Of a DNA stretch of 64,000 nucleotides, positions 21,953 to 28,907 are shown one piece after another; within the stretch, counting starts at the first letter, position 1; every line of letters begins with the position of its first letter. Origin of the DNA: Nitrospirota bacterium (GTDB taxonomy: Bacteria > Nitrospirota > Nitrospiria > SBBL01 > JAADHI01); NCBI GenBank assembly GCA_029261135.1, contig JAJDBX010000046.1, positions 80,158 through 144,157 of the forward strand, given 5' to 3'. The notes below the pieces were generated by a model. That model was not told where the DNA came from. It did no database searches and worked only from the letters and a program-made list of their open reading frames with translations. The position numbers were made by a program, and so were the translations under genes.

Positions 21953-22309
21953 ATGCTAGATTTAATTAAACATAAATATATTTATTACTGTTTCTGTGCC
22001 GTATTCATGTCACATTCTTATTCTATTTATATTGATGCTGGGTTAGCCATTATGATAGCATCTAAAGTTGTTTCGTATTTTCAGCATTCAGAAGACAGCA
22101 TGATTCTGTACGTAATGCCCTTGGTCGAACCGTCAAATTGAGGAATGCGAGGAAGAATAGTCAATTGTTGTGGTCTTACATAAGGATATTCCGATTACAG
22201 CACCATCTCTTCACCTTTACAAGACTCTCCCCCAGAACAGGTAAATAATCTGAACTCCTTTTGGCGCAAAGTTGACCCTTTCCTTTTTAAATTGTCTTGA
22301 GGAAATGCT
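21953..22309 (+). other. Non-coding spacer between ntrX and the acyltransferase gene
   Basis: 357 bp. The track offers a 62-residue ORF (21953-22141) starting directly at the ntrX stop; it has no ribosome site and no recognisable pattern, so I do not call it. No clear terminator or promoter was found; GAGGA at the right end is the Shine-Dalgarno of the next gene. Confidence 0.5.
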
Positions 22310-23047
22310 ATGGTCGCCGATCACTTTAACCAAAATTTTGAAATCATTCCGGTCAATACAGATGCATTACTCGAAGAAGTTCTCCGATTACGATACCAAG
22401 TCTATTGCGTCGAAAATCCACTCGCTGATCCAAATAGCTATACAGATTGCAAAGAACACGATTTCTATGACACACACTCCGTTCACCGCCTTATCCGACA
22501 TAAATTAACAGGCATATTTGTCGCTTCGGTTAGATTGATTCTACCGAACCCCGATGATTGGGCAACCTCCTTTCCTATGGAGGCATATTGCGGCGAGTTT
22601 TTTTATCGTGATACGATTCCTTTAAAACAAATTCCCAGGGAATCGTTTGCAGAGGTCTCCCGTTTTCTTGTTTCAAAAAAACGGGAGCGGCAGATAAAGG
22701 ATATATCTGTTCGAAACATGAAGCGGGATGGCTCGGATATTGTTTATACAAAGAGGGATGGTCAGTTCTGTTACCTTCTGCTCTTTGGGCTTTTTTCTGC
22801 AGTCGTGTGCATGACGATACAATATAACACCTCCTATTGGTATGCCGGTGTGGAACCCGCTTTTCATCGATTACTCAAAAGGTTTGGGATCGACTTTCCT
22901 CAGATTGGCCCACTCTTCGAGTATCACGGCAAAAGAATCCCCTGTCTCGGATCAACAGAATCTATTTTGTCAGGCATTCATAAATATCGTCCTGAAGTAT
23001 GGAAATTTATCACTCAAAACGGCAAGCTTGTCCCGTCTAGGAAATAG
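22310..23047 (+). CDS. PEP-CTERM/exosortase system-associated acyltransferase (GNAT-like)
   Basis: Resembles the exosortase-associated putative acyltransferase family, related to N-acyl amino acid synthases (FeeM) and acyl-homoserine-lactone synthases. Seen: LRLRYQVYCVENPL near the N-terminus, SVRLILPN and ESFAEVSRFLVSKKRER in the middle (the Arg and Glu/Ser-Arg pattern of these synthases), and WYAGVEPAFHRLLKRFGIDF with GPLFEYHGKRIPC towards the end. 245 residues is normal. The ATG has GAGGA 6 nt upstream. No exosortase or PEP-CTERM protein is visible in the window. The acyl acceptor is unknown. Confidence 0.82.
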   Translation: MVADHFNQNFEIIPVNTDALLEEVLRLRYQVYCVENPLADPNSYTDCKEHDFYDTHSVHRLIRHKLTGIFVASVRLILPNPDDWATSFPMEAYCGEFFYRDTIPLKQIPRESFAEVSRFLVSKKRERQIKDISVRNMKRDGSDIVYTKRDGQFCYLLLFGLFSAVVCMTIQYNTSYWYAGVEPAFHRLLKRFGIDFPQIGPLFEYHGKRIPCLGSTESILSGIHKYRPEVWKFITQNGKLVPSRK

Positions 23048-23094: not shown

Positions 23095-23517
23095 ATGAAG
23101 TCTTTTTTTATATTCATCATGATGCTCCTATTGATGTTTGGGACGATACTGGGTGTAGAGGCGCAAGAGGTTGTTGTTCACCCCAGTGTCAGCCAAGAGA
23201 CAATCTCAAGGAATACCTTGCGAGCAATCTTTGGCATGCGTCTCCGCCGATGGCCTGACGGAAGTGTCGTTAAGGTTTTTGTGCTTCGGGACGATGCTGA
23301 ACTCCACAAAAAGTTTTCAAAGTCGATTCTCCATTTATTTCCTTATCAACTACGGCGGGCATGGGATCGACAAGTTTTTTCCGGAACAGGTCAGTCGCCA
23401 CAAGAGGTCATCTCATTAGAATCGATGAGAGCAAAGATCACCCATACACCCGGGGCTATTGGCTATTTACCAATTGGAAATACTGAAATAGGGATGAAGA
23501 TCTTAAATGTCCGATAA
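23095..23517 (+). CDS. Small exported PstS-like periplasmic protein
   Basis: Signal peptide (FFIFIMMLLLMFGTILGVEAQ) followed by a short domain like the first lobe of phosphate-type solute-binding proteins: VSQETISRNTLRAIFGMRLRRWPDG and, near the end, TPGAIGYLPIG. At 140 residues it is about half the length of true PstS, as in the small family often annotated as phosphate ABC transporter substrate-binding protein, and no ABC transporter genes are near. It overlaps the porin-like gene by 11 bp, so the two are translationally linked. A role in ligand sensing for the downstream GGDEF-EAL protein is a guess from context. Confidence 0.72.
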   Translation: MKSFFIFIMMLLLMFGTILGVEAQEVVVHPSVSQETISRNTLRAIFGMRLRRWPDGSVVKVFVLRDDAELHKKFSKSILHLFPYQLRRAWDRQVFSGTGQSPQEVISLESMRAKITHTPGAIGYLPIGNTEIGMKILNVR

Positions 23518-24715
23518 GTTTATTTATGGATTAAAGCTGTTCTTTGTGTTTCTCTGCTTTTTAATAGAAGGTGTGGCTTCTTCTATCTTCGGTGCTGAAT
23601 TGCCAGATTCGCTCCAAATACATGGTTTTGCGACCCAGGGTTTTATCCTAACATCAGATAATAATTTTTTTGGGAAGAGTAAAGATGGAAGTTTCGACTT
23701 CACTGAACTGGGAGTGAATACATCGATTCGTCCCATTCTAGACATGCAAATTTCAGCACAAGTTATTTCACGCCGGGCAGGGGAGGGGAATGACAGAGAC
23801 CCCCAATTAGATTATGGTTTTTTGGATTATAGCCTCATTTCGAATGCATCAAGAAAACTCGGCATCCGACTGGGGAGAGTAAAAAATCCGCTCGGTTTTT
23901 ACAACGACACACGAGATGTTGCCTTTACAAGACCCAGTATATTTTTACCCCAATCGATCTATTTTGGTCGGACGCGGAACCTGGCCCTTTCATCGGACGG
24001 ATTAAACATTTATGCAGAATATCGCAAAGGTTTTGCAAACCTATTTTACGAACTTGAAGTGGGCTACCCGAAAGTTGACGACAGAGAAACAGAGCTCGCT
24101 TTTCTTGGCCAAAAACTCCAAACACAGGGTGGACTTGATGAACGCCTTTCATACATCAGTCGCTTCATCATTGAGCCTACTGGTGGGAGAATTCGTATTG
24201 CTCTGAGCGGAGCGCTTGTCAATATCATATTTGAGCCAAAAACAAGTGCTGTAAAAACAGGCACGATCCGTTTCACCCCTTTAATTTTTTCGGTACAGTA
24301 TAACACCGAATTCTGGAGCCTAAGCTCTGAGTATGCCCTTCGCTATTCCAGATATCGAGACGTTGGACCACTCAGTTTCAACAATACGGGAGAGAGCTAC
24401 TACCTTCAGGGAAGCTATCGCATCTCGGAGCAGTTAGAGGCCGTGCTTCGCTATGATGTTCTCTTTCAAAATCAGGATGATCGATCCGGAACAAAATTTT
24501 CCGCAGCATCCACTACAGGGGCTCTCGCACATACCCGCTTTGCAAAGGATTCGACCGTGGGCTTGCGGTGGGACATCACGAGTGCATGGATGTCGCGCAT
24601 CGAATATCACTATATCGATGGGACTGCCTGGCTTCCACTTTCGGACAATCCTGTGGCATCCGCGACAGAGCGGTACTGGGATCTATTCTCTATTCTCGTC
24701 TCATTTCGTTTTTAA
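23507..24715 (+). CDS. Porin-like outer-membrane beta-barrel protein
   Basis: Exported protein (signal peptide ending near SSIFGAE) with a body of alternating short amphipathic strands rich in aromatic residues and Ser/Thr/Asp turns, e.g. LGIRLGRVKNPLGFYNDTRD, and a C-terminus ending in phenylalanine (LVSFRF), the usual signal for barrel insertion. 402 residues would fit a porin of about 16 strands. Substrate unknown. It overlaps the PstS-like gene and is followed after 32 bp by the GGDEF-EAL gene, consistent with one operon. Confidence 0.78.
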   Translation: MSDKFIYGLKLFFVFLCFLIEGVASSIFGAELPDSLQIHGFATQGFILTSDNNFFGKSKDGSFDFTELGVNTSIRPILDMQISAQVISRRAGEGNDRDPQLDYGFLDYSLISNASRKLGIRLGRVKNPLGFYNDTRDVAFTRPSIFLPQSIYFGRTRNLALSSDGLNIYAEYRKGFANLFYELEVGYPKVDDRETELAFLGQKLQTQGGLDERLSYISRFIIEPTGGRIRIALSGALVNIIFEPKTSAVKTGTIRFTPLIFSVQYNTEFWSLSSEYALRYSRYRDVGPLSFNNTGESYYLQGSYRISEQLEAVLRYDVLFQNQDDRSGTKFSAASTTGALAHTRFAKDSTVGLRWDITSAWMSRIEYHYIDGTAWLPLSDNPVASATERYWDLFSILVSFRF

Positions 24716-24747: not shown

Positions 24748-27633
24748 ATGACACTTCTTTCTCATAAAGTTCAGCGATTCTTAAGCTTAAAATGGAAGGC
24801 CTTGATTTTATTTAGTATGGTACTTTTTGTAATCAATGCCTCTTTCCCCTTTTTCAGCCATCAAAACTTAATGGAACATTATGATCAACGTCGAGAAGCT
24901 GAACATGCGCACTTTACAAAAGAGTTTGACGGACTCATGGAACATATGCTTAAACGCTCACTTCAGTTCAGTGAGGTCATTCCCTTGCTTGACGGCGTCG
25001 AAGAATCCTTGGTGAGCGGGAAAAATGAAACGATTCGTTTGGCTTTTGACGGTCATTGGTCTTTGTTGCAACTCGATATGGGTATTGACCTTGTTCGTTT
25101 TCATTCTGTCTCAGGCAGAGAATTGGGTCGCTGGGGTCATTCAACTTTTATTGCAGAGGAGGAACTGCTGATTACAGGTTGGATCGAAGAGGTCATTCGA
25201 AAAGAACGTCCCATCACGGCACTTTCCTGCATCCGTATCTGCACACAATATGTCATGGCACCCCTTCTTTCGGAAGGGGAAAAAATCGGGATCATCTTGT
25301 TGGGTAGTTCTCTGGCCGAAGTCATTATCAACCTTCAGCAGATTTCCGGGCGGGAAATCGGCGTTCTCATTGACAGAAAGGGTGAGGAAATCCATAAGCC
25401 CTCAGAAAATTTGACACAAGGCAGAATGATCTCCTCTTGGAATAAAGAGATTATCGCCTTAACCAATATGAACCTTACCTTGCCACTACTTCGATCCGTC
25501 GTGCAGAAAATACCTTCTTTTGATGACATCATCAAAGGGAAAAAAGTGGGTTTCGAAAACAGAAATTATGAATTAGGCGTCATTCCCTTACAGGGGCTTG
25601 CCAATCCTGGGGCAGGACACCTCATAGTGATTGACGATATTTCCAAGACACTATTAGAAATTCGGAGGGCAACCCGAAAAAGTTTAATCGCCGGAATCAT
25701 TGGGCTTCTGTTTTCTGAAGGGATCTTATTGGCTATTTTATGGACGCCAATCTCACGTCTTCGCCTCATTACAGAAACATTACCCTTGCTCGCCCAGGGT
25801 AAATTTAAGCAGGTAAGGCGCGCGTTCTCAACGAGACCTCAAAGCTTGATGAAGGACGAGATCGACATACTTGATGACGCGGCCATTGCCCTTTCTCATC
25901 AGTTGGAAATGCTGGAAACAGAGGTCAAAATAAGGACTAAGACGCTTGCGGCCAGAATGGAAGATCTGGCCCATGAAAAGGATTTCATCGCGCATTTACT
26001 GGACACGGCCCGTGTGATTATTCTTACACAGGACAAAGATGGAAAGCTCATGATGCTGAACCAACATGCTTGCCATATAACAGGCTACAAGAGAAATGAA
26101 CTCACGGGCATGGGTTTTGCCGATCTTTTTTCTGAGGGAGACTTGACGATTGAAATGATGGATGATTTAGGAAGAATTTGTTCTGGTCAAAGAGAATATG
26201 TCTCACACGAATCGGTGATCACTTGTAAAAATAGATCATTGCGACATATCGTCTGGGTGCATTCTCGCCTGGCGCGAAAAAAAGAAAATGAGCCTGTCAT
26301 CCTGTCGGTGGGTTTAGATTTCACTGCCCGGAAACAGGCAGAATTACGACTTTCGTGGTTGGCCGACCATGATCCACTCACGAGTTTATTTAATCGGCGT
26401 CGTTTTCAAAGTGAACTGGAGAACATACTTGCTAAATCAAAAAAATCCGGGCAGGCTGGCGCTCTTTTTTACTTCGATCTAGATCAATTTAAATATGTGA
26501 ATGATACGCAAGGCCATCATGCGGGAGATACACTGCTGAAGGTAATCGCCAGTCAGCTTTTTCGATTTGTTCGTACAACAGATATTGTGGGTCGTTTGGG
26601 TGGGGATGAATTTGCCATCGTTGTTTCTGAAATAAATGAAACGGGCGCACTTCAGATTGCACATAAAATTACGCAATATTTGGATAATGTTGAAGTTTCA
26701 GTACTTGGACCCGCATTCAAAATTTCTGCCAGCATTGGTATCGTCCTTTTTCCTGCACATGGGGAAACACTGCAAGAACTGCTTTCCAATGCAGACCTTG
26801 CGATGTACCAGGCAAAAGAAAAAGGGCAGGGCTCTTGGCATCTCTTTACAGGATATGAACCCATTCGAGCACGGATGAAAGAGCAGGTATATTGGAAAGA
26901 TCGGATTAAACAAGCACTCGATAACGATCTTTTCGTCATGTATTTTCAACCCGTTCGAAATATTCATAACGGATCCATTTTTTGTTACGAAGCCCTGATC
27001 CGAATGCGTGATCAAGATGAAACCTTGATCTCTCCAGCTGCATTTATTCCTATTGCAGAAGAAAGTGGGCTCATTTATGAAATCGATCACTTGGTGCTCG
27101 ACAAAGTGATTTCCCGTCAGGCGGCACTTTCCGCCCAGGGGATTCATCTGACCTTTACACTGAATCTTTCCGGTTACGCATTCAATGATCCCGCATTATT
27201 GTCTCATCTTAAGCGAACCTTAACAGAAACGGGAGCAAATCCAGAAAACATTGTGATCGAAATAACAGAAACAGCCGCTGTTTCTGATTTGGTTGCAGCC
27301 TGTTGTCTCATGAACGAAATTAAAGATCTAGGTTGTTCTTTTGCACTGGATGATTTCGGAACGGGCTTTGCCTCTTTCAATTATCTGAAGGAGCTTCCAG
27401 TGGATATCGTCAAGATTGGAGACACTTTCATCAAAGAAATAGTGACACGTCCCGACGATCAAATCTTTGTGAAATCTCTGACTGAAGTGACGAAAGGCTT
27501 GGGTAAAAAAACCATCGCAGAAGGGGTGGAAAATGCAGAAATACTATCTTTATTAAAAGAATACGCTGTCGATTTTGCCCAAGGCTGGCATGTGGGAAAA
27601 CCCGTCAGTAAGCTCCTCGAAGAAGGACCTTGA
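24748..27633 (+). CDS. Membrane sensor with PAS, GGDEF and EAL domains
   Basis: Likely bifunctional c-di-GMP enzyme. Seen in order: membrane segment (about residues 15-33), periplasmic sensor region of about 260 residues resembling Cache/CHASE types, second membrane segment (about 310-335), a HAMP-like linker and coiled coil, PAS (about 415-530), GGDEF (about 545-700) with RLGGDEF and I-site RTTD, and EAL (about 730-955) with YEALIR, EITETA, LDDFGTG, VKIGD and AEGVENAE. The active-site residues of both catalytic domains look intact. Upstream PstS-like and porin genes suggest an envelope-borne signal. Confidence 0.93.
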   Translation: MTLLSHKVQRFLSLKWKALILFSMVLFVINASFPFFSHQNLMEHYDQRREAEHAHFTKEFDGLMEHMLKRSLQFSEVIPLLDGVEESLVSGKNETIRLAFDGHWSLLQLDMGIDLVRFHSVSGRELGRWGHSTFIAEEELLITGWIEEVIRKERPITALSCIRICTQYVMAPLLSEGEKIGIILLGSSLAEVIINLQQISGREIGVLIDRKGEEIHKPSENLTQGRMISSWNKEIIALTNMNLTLPLLRSVVQKIPSFDDIIKGKKVGFENRNYELGVIPLQGLANPGAGHLIVIDDISKTLLEIRRATRKSLIAGIIGLLFSEGILLAILWTPISRLRLITETLPLLAQGKFKQVRRAFSTRPQSLMKDEIDILDDAAIALSHQLEMLETEVKIRTKTLAARMEDLAHEKDFIAHLLDTARVIILTQDKDGKLMMLNQHACHITGYKRNELTGMGFADLFSEGDLTIEMMDDLGRICSGQREYVSHESVITCKNRSLRHIVWVHSRLARKKENEPVILSVGLDFTARKQAELRLSWLADHDPLTSLFNRRRFQSELENILAKSKKSGQAGALFYFDLDQFKYVNDTQGHHAGDTLLKVIASQLFRFVRTTDIVGRLGGDEFAIVVSEINETGALQIAHKITQYLDNVEVSVLGPAFKISASIGIVLFPAHGETLQELLSNADLAMYQAKEKGQGSWHLFTGYEPIRARMKEQVYWKDRIKQALDNDLFVMYFQPVRNIHNGSIFCYEALIRMRDQDETLISPAAFIPIAEESGLIYEIDHLVLDKVISRQAALSAQGIHLTFTLNLSGYAFNDPALLSHLKRTLTETGANPENIVIEITETAAVSDLVAACCLMNEIKDLGCSFALDDFGTGFASFNYLKELPVDIVKIGDTFIKEIVTRPDDQIFVKSLTEVTKGLGKKTIAEGVENAEILSLLKEYAVDFAQGWHVGKPVSKLLEEGP

Positions 27634-28010: not shown

Positions 28011-28800
28011 TCAATACGGGAAATACCAGGCTTCCGAATGTTCTGGGATTTCCCAGGTCAGTGGCAAGCGATGGCTCTTTTCACTGAGAAGACCCTCATC
28101 GCGAAGTTGCGCCAAAAAACGGCGCACTGAGCGTTCAGACATTCGACAAAGTTCAAGCGCGAATGAGCGCATCTTGGCTCAACAATCCTCGCCCGTCGTG
28201 ATCTCCTTGCCTCGACACATCTGCAGCTTGCAGCATCGTTTTATACTCCACTGAGGCGCGCACAAGACCACGACTTAAACAGCAAATACCGACACTTACC
28301 ATCCCATTTTTTAAATGACGAATTGGTCAATAAGCGCATCACACGCCCATTCCTATCCGCAAAGGGATGAATCCACGCAAAGCGGTGATGTGTACAGATG
28401 ATCGCGATAACCTTCTGAGGATCAAATGATTAAGGGTGTGGCCCGAATTATTTTTAATGTACGCAGGGACTCGGGAACATGACGATAGAATTCAATATGA
28501 ATTGCTCGAATAAATTCGCGTGAATACAAAGTGTCATGATCTGGAGCCTGATCGGTAAAGCATTGCTGGACTTTAATATGTGCAATCGTTTGAACTAAAA
28601 ATCTCTTTTGGCGAGGTCTTTAGAAAAGTCGCCCCTTTGCGCCGCACGAATTTCATAAGGCTACGTGTGATTTCCTTCGATGAGATTTGTGTAATAGAAA
28701 TTGATGACTTCCATATGACGGGAGATGACATTTCGGATTTCTGGCGAGACACTTCCTACCAGCTTCGCCGTGGCAACAGATAATGAAACAGCTTTATGCT
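28011..28800 (-). pseudogene. Decayed Fic/DOC family gene
   Basis: No intact ORF, but hand translation of the minus strand recovers a Fic-family protein nearly end to end across several frames. Pieces in order: MEVINFYYTNLIEGNHT, then an in-frame TAG, PYEIRAAQRGDFSKDLAKRD, FIRAIHIEFYRHVPESL, the Fic active-site region [37 protein letters not shown] and a C-terminal winged-helix part (SERSVRRFLAQLRDEGLLSE). At least three frameshifts and the stop inactivate it. The core motif also has Arg where HPFxDGNGR has Gly. In active members the domain transfers AMP or another group to target proteins. Confidence 0.86.
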
Positions 28801-28844: not shown

Positions 28845-28907
28845 AGAACAATTATGGCTTATTGACAGCAGATTAATAATCTGCTGTCAATAAGCCATAA
28901 TTGTTTT
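28845..28907. repeat. Long near-perfect palindrome (29-bp arms, 1-nt centre)
   Basis: Left arm AACAATTATGGCTTATTGAC continuing to GATTA (28847-28875), one central A, and the exact reverse complement (28877-28905); a G-U and an A-T pair extend it by two. It sits between the 5' end of the Fic pseudogene and the zinc-ribbon gene. Flanking sequence does not continue the symmetry, so it is not a simple fold-back assembly join. Confidence 0.9.

Follow-up and report, generated by a model that had tools for sequence, protein, structure and literature searches.

The window, the 64,000-nucleotide stretch of Nitrospirota DNA analysed here as a whole, contains an acyltransferase gene (acylT, abbreviated A) followed by genes for an exported PstS-like protein (P), an outer-membrane barrel (B) and a membrane-bound GGDEF-EAL sensor (G) (Table 1). 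All four genes are carried on the forward strand with gaps of 47, -11 and 32 bp, in agreement with the sequence-only reading, which had placed acylT directly before P with its neighbours on one strand. The four genes (A-P-B-G) are best explained as a single operon-like c-di-GMP signalling module. The operon promoter presumably lies in the gap between ntrX and acylT, in which no convincing sigma-70 or sigma-54 site was recognised. A sigma-54 promoter upstream of acylT was considered and discarded, such sites not being enriched among module members, and an Rfam scan of the module region gave no match. Downstream of the module, the Fic-like motif looks like a decayed Fic gene, and the inverted repeat that separates this remnant from the next gene looks terminator-like in both directions.

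Table 1. Position of the four module genes and of flanking features in the window.
Feature	Position	Strand	Description
Intergenic gap ntrX-acylT	21953..22309	.	357 bp
acylT (A)	22310..23047	+	245 aa, ATG start; TIGR03694 acyltransferase
P	23095..23517	+	Exported 140-aa single-lobe PstS-like protein
B	23507..24715	+	Outer-membrane beta-barrel; 11-bp overlap with the P gene
G	24748..27633	+	Membrane sensor: periplasmic dCache_3, then PAS, GGDEF, EAL
Fic-like motif	28320-28400	-	No long open frame around it
Inverted repeat	28853-28899		Perfect 20-bp repeat, 7-base loop

The acyltransferase and its three neighbours

The window acylT matched TIGR03694 over the full length of the model (228.2 bits against a cut-off of 111.95; model positions 2-238 of 241), and at twice the cut-off its earlier placement in the exosortase-associated acyltransferase family stands. 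It also matched Pfam Acetyltransf_5 (43.4 bits, cut-off 22.4), and a genome search identified it as the single TIGR03694 acyltransferase of the window genome. The proposed kinship with FeeM and LuxI was upheld by fold: the best PDB folds returned by Foldseek for the AlphaFold model (36 sequences, mean pLDDT 91.3) were TofI, FeeM, RpaI and LasI. Because the protein scores below the cut-offs of the Pfam models for FeeM (PF21926; 21.3 bits, cut-off 27) and Autoind_synth/LuxI (PF00765; 17.7 bits, cut-off 24), it is fold-kin of both families and a member of neither. With FeeM (PDB 2g0b), TofI, LasI, RpaI and EsaI it shares the fold and an E-x-S-R catalytic-type motif, the spacing of which is similar to that of acyl-homoserine lactone (AHL) synthases; it is, however, longer than FeeM and the LuxI-type AHL synthases. 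Residues R28, D54, R75, E115, S117 and R118 were invariant in 120/120 family sequences, with E49 conserved in 118/120 and D51 in 119/120. The active-site layout of AHL synthases is well established and, by analogy with it, the invariant residues would form the active site of acylT. The invariant residues are shared with 36 non-module members of the family. A phage origin was rejected (no PHROG match). Members of TIGR03694 have reportedly been assigned as N-acyl amino acid synthases, and the putative product of acylT is an N-acyl amino acid.

P had been described from sequence as a PstS-like exported protein, of which the export and the PstS fold were borne out, but the protein consists of a single lobe and carries no phosphate loop. 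Its model (pLDDT 94) corresponds to one PstS lobe (TM 0.67 on the query), the second lobe is missing and no ABC transporter genes adjoin; the match to PF12849 (PBP_like_2) reached 16.8 bits, under the cut-off of 27. The segment aligned to the S-S-G-T loop of Vibrio PstS reads D-x-x-L-H, none of the 43 P proteins has S/T-G-T at this site, and SGTGQxP forms a new invariant motif of these proteins. Plain phosphate sensing by P is unlikely because of the loss of the S-G-T loop, and as a strong claim it was rejected.

The porin-like barrel named in the sequence-only reading is B, an outer-membrane barrel. The window B had no family match over cut-off, Porin_O_P included; a Nitrosovibrio ortholog matches Porin_O_P, the model of the phosphate-selective porins OprO/OprP (29.6 bits, cut-off 20.9). 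The GGDEF-EAL sensor of that reading was likewise recovered, with its full domain order. In G both the GGDEF and EAL catalytic motifs are intact and the RxxD I-site is present; among 80 G proteins the GGDEF signature is intact in all, the EAL-site residues E, N, E, DD, K and E are kept in 79-80, and the I-site occurs in 75. Two cysteines of the periplasmic sensor domain, C161 and C165, are at least 90% conserved across the 80 relatives and might possibly form a disulphide or a metal/redox site.

Conservation and history of the gene order

The A-P-B-G order was found in all seven Manganitrophaceae-type genomes of the window's family with a full-length enzyme; two genomes have two copies. In G003 (contig C32; L022 / L099) the A-P-B unit is duplicated in tandem (A-P-B-A-P-B), and behind it come a truncated fragment of a third barrel and a single GGDEF-EAL gene. 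Only three of the Manganitrophaceae-type genomes have NtrYX ahead of the module, and in the rest of the phylum no TIGR03694 member was located near P, B or G.

A single-protein scan of the genome contigs returned no relatives, whereas a scan with a barrel alignment did find them, resulting in 327 relatives, from which 79 loci, mostly of Nitrosomonadaceae, were kept and supplemented with Halomonas PA16-9 to give 80. The exact order A-P-B-G was present in 58 of these 80 barrel-selected loci, and acylT adjoined the barrel in 72/77 of those not cut there by a contig end. Since this set had been chosen by barrel similarity, we also took an unselected class sample of 369 Gammaproteobacteria (GTDB sense). 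TIGR03694 scored over its cut-off in 47 of these genomes and the barrel occurred in 38, with both in 22 compared to 4.8 expected (a roughly 4.5-fold excess). Among these 22 genomes, 13 have the two genes no more than 4 kb apart; at least four arrangements occur, acylT being placed upstream, divergently, downstream or as part of a split module. Twelve of the 13 were inspected as longer regions, which contained P and B in every case and G in all except those truncated by a contig end; in one genome (G410) the G gene lies upstream of acylT. The four-gene order is thus strongly conserved, so that the loss of gene order in relatives, which the sequence-only reading had named as counting against it, does not apply, and the link that the sequence-only reading drew between acylT and its three neighbours gains from an order kept across phyla and from independent rearrangements. 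That the four genes cluster by inheritance or chance, with no functional tie, would suit the fact that most barrel-selected loci belong to the mutually related Nitrosomonadaceae; however, the varied arrangements in distant lineages, the tandem A-P-B duplication and the 13/22 co-location in the unselected sample refute this for practical purposes, and we consider it extremely improbable.

The sensor genes also occur by themselves. P-B-G was present without acylT at 8 of the 20 class-sample loci inspected, and in five of those genomes no TIGR03694 gene was detected. These loci show that the P-B-G sensor can be present in a cell that does not make the ligand itself and, since some of the genomes have no detected TIGR03694 gene, that an N-acyl product of the same cell is not its obligate ligand.

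In the acylT tree (support given as SH-aLRT only, from a quick search) the window protein groups with the gammaproteobacterial module members (SH-aLRT 96), whereas the other Nitrospirota members form a separate clade (SH-aLRT 97), and this placement suggests that the module was transferred between phyla. To explain the same tree, acylT must have switched between module and non-module positions about six times, and no fewer than three times by starred branches; taken with the varied positions of acylT, these switches indicate that the link between acylT and the module was made more than once. In the barrel tree, acylT was gained or lost repeatedly.

Relation to exosortase systems

The surroundings of the acylT locus contain no recognisable exosortase or PEP-CTERM gene. 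A search of the window genome (G000), however, identified a single exosortase along with three PEP-CTERM proteins. One PEP-CTERM protein is encoded about 80 kb from the acylT locus on the same contig (C41), and the exosortase lies on another (C56), on which no acyltransferase is found. The description of the acyltransferase as an orphan is therefore accurate for the locus and not for the genome. An exosortase cluster elsewhere, named in the same reading as an observation that would count against it, exists in the window genome but is missing from others. The exosortase of C56 (L025:10100-13863, minus strand) is a 526-aa exosortase-EpsI fusion that is XrtD/XrtA-like, with a score against XrtD of 403, barely over the cut-off of 400. 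A PrsK histidine kinase gene adjoins it, with no acyltransferase nearby.

Non-module TIGR03694 members are commonly located 10-16 kb from an exosortase, usually in exopolysaccharide clusters, whereas the window acylT sits in a c-di-GMP module, and many module members belong to genomes without any detectable exosortase. In the class sample an exosortase went undetected in 7/13 module genomes compared to 6/34 genomes whose family members lie outside the module (Fisher p = 0.026), which supports the absence of a tie between acylT and an exosortase locus. Of the seven genomes, G601 and G508 each consist of a single contig and are close to complete; the others are draft assemblies. From the co-location in 13/22 genomes and the missing exosortase in 7/13, it therefore follows that acylT belongs to a c-di-GMP module that is not dependent on an exosortase. 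Whatever its mechanism, the exosortase-defined family has a second, exosortase-free genomic home.

The enzyme could alternatively serve the PEP-CTERM/exosortase system encoded elsewhere in the genome, for instance by attaching lipid to the sorted proteins or by producing a lipid of the matrix, with its place beside P-B-G a matter of regulatory convenience. The exosortase with EpsI domain, PrsK kinase and three PEP-CTERM proteins of the window genome would accord with such a role, as would the usual distance of non-module members from exosortases and the presence of an exosortase in 32/35 module genomes of the barrel-selected set. The difference between module and non-module genomes in the class sample, which includes the near-complete G601 and G508, speaks against it, and we regard this role as unlikely.

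A candidate signalling circuit

The leading mechanism, to which we give slightly less than an even chance, is that the acylT product is the ligand of the module and that the output is made through c-di-GMP. The enzyme would take a long-chain acyl group from acyl-ACP and attach it to an amino acid or a similar amine, and the resulting N-acyl amphiphile would partition into the envelope. There, P and B would capture the compound or pass it on, either alone or in a complex. The dCache domain of G would translate occupancy into a rise or fall of c-di-GMP, a change that would in turn affect attachment or matrix production. The product class, the N-acyl product as the sensed ligand and the direction of the c-di-GMP response are all inferred. 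A-P-B-G suggests an undescribed chemical-signalling circuit; in its full form, with an N-acyl amino acid sensed outside the cytoplasm via B and P and converted directly to a c-di-GMP signal by G in ammonia oxidisers, putative manganese oxidisers and other gammaproteobacteria, we propose it tentatively.

N-acyl amino acids could also serve as structural compounds or surfactants instead of signals. In an alternative reading, P-B-G would sense an oxyanion or metabolite entering via the OprO/P-like barrel, and acylT would be an effector that makes an N-acyl surfactant or envelope lipid for a c-di-GMP-driven attached state, an arrangement that we find somewhat less probable than the ligand role, although the two are close. 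P-B-G is the more constant core and is present without acylT, B is a distant relative of phosphate-selective porins, as P is of PstS, and other family members lie 10-16 kb from exosortases in what are mostly exopolysaccharide clusters, all of which fits an effector role. In Methylomonas LW13, furthermore, deletion of a family member led to the loss of a polysaccharide band that was restored by complementation (PMC11072679). This phenotype may, however, be independent of the A-P-B-G module, because among methanotroph-family genomes carrying the enzyme only 1/21 has it beside P and B. Against an effector role, the phosphate S-G-T loop is lost in 43/43 P proteins, which makes plain phosphate sensing unlikely. 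That acylT was recruited repeatedly and independently to a sensor whose input is periplasmic also agrees with its product being the ligand.

The enzyme family and each single domain of A-P-B-G are already known; a description of the four-gene module was not found in the open-access papers searched. NspS-MbaA-type systems consist of a periplasmic binding protein and a membrane GGDEF-EAL partner. A-P-B-G likewise pairs a relative of binding proteins with a membrane GGDEF-EAL sensor, but its binding protein is a half-lobe, and the module further includes an outer-membrane barrel dedicated to it and a synthase for a small molecule. In LuxI/LuxR quorum sensing an N-acyl synthase acts together with a cytoplasmic transcription-factor receptor; A-P-B-G similarly links an N-acyl synthase to a candidate receptor, which would in this case be a set of envelope proteins with a c-di-GMP output.

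If the signalling mechanism is correct, chemolithotrophs with a central part in nitrogen and manganese cycling possess a route from signal to c-di-GMP for which the synthase, the periplasmic and outer-membrane components and the readout are all identified, and exosortase-associated acyltransferases gain a testable role. It would also add a candidate to the sources of N-acyl compounds in Nitrosomonas, for which acyl-homoserine lactones have been reported (Burton 2005, as cited in other papers).

Three loci of Methylococcaceae-type genomes (L143, L152 and L175) contain P-barrel pairs without acylT or a GGDEF-EAL gene, so P and B can occur without both partners. Each pair follows a short open reading frame (MIDADGYRLNVG...), whose product we take to resemble RppH.
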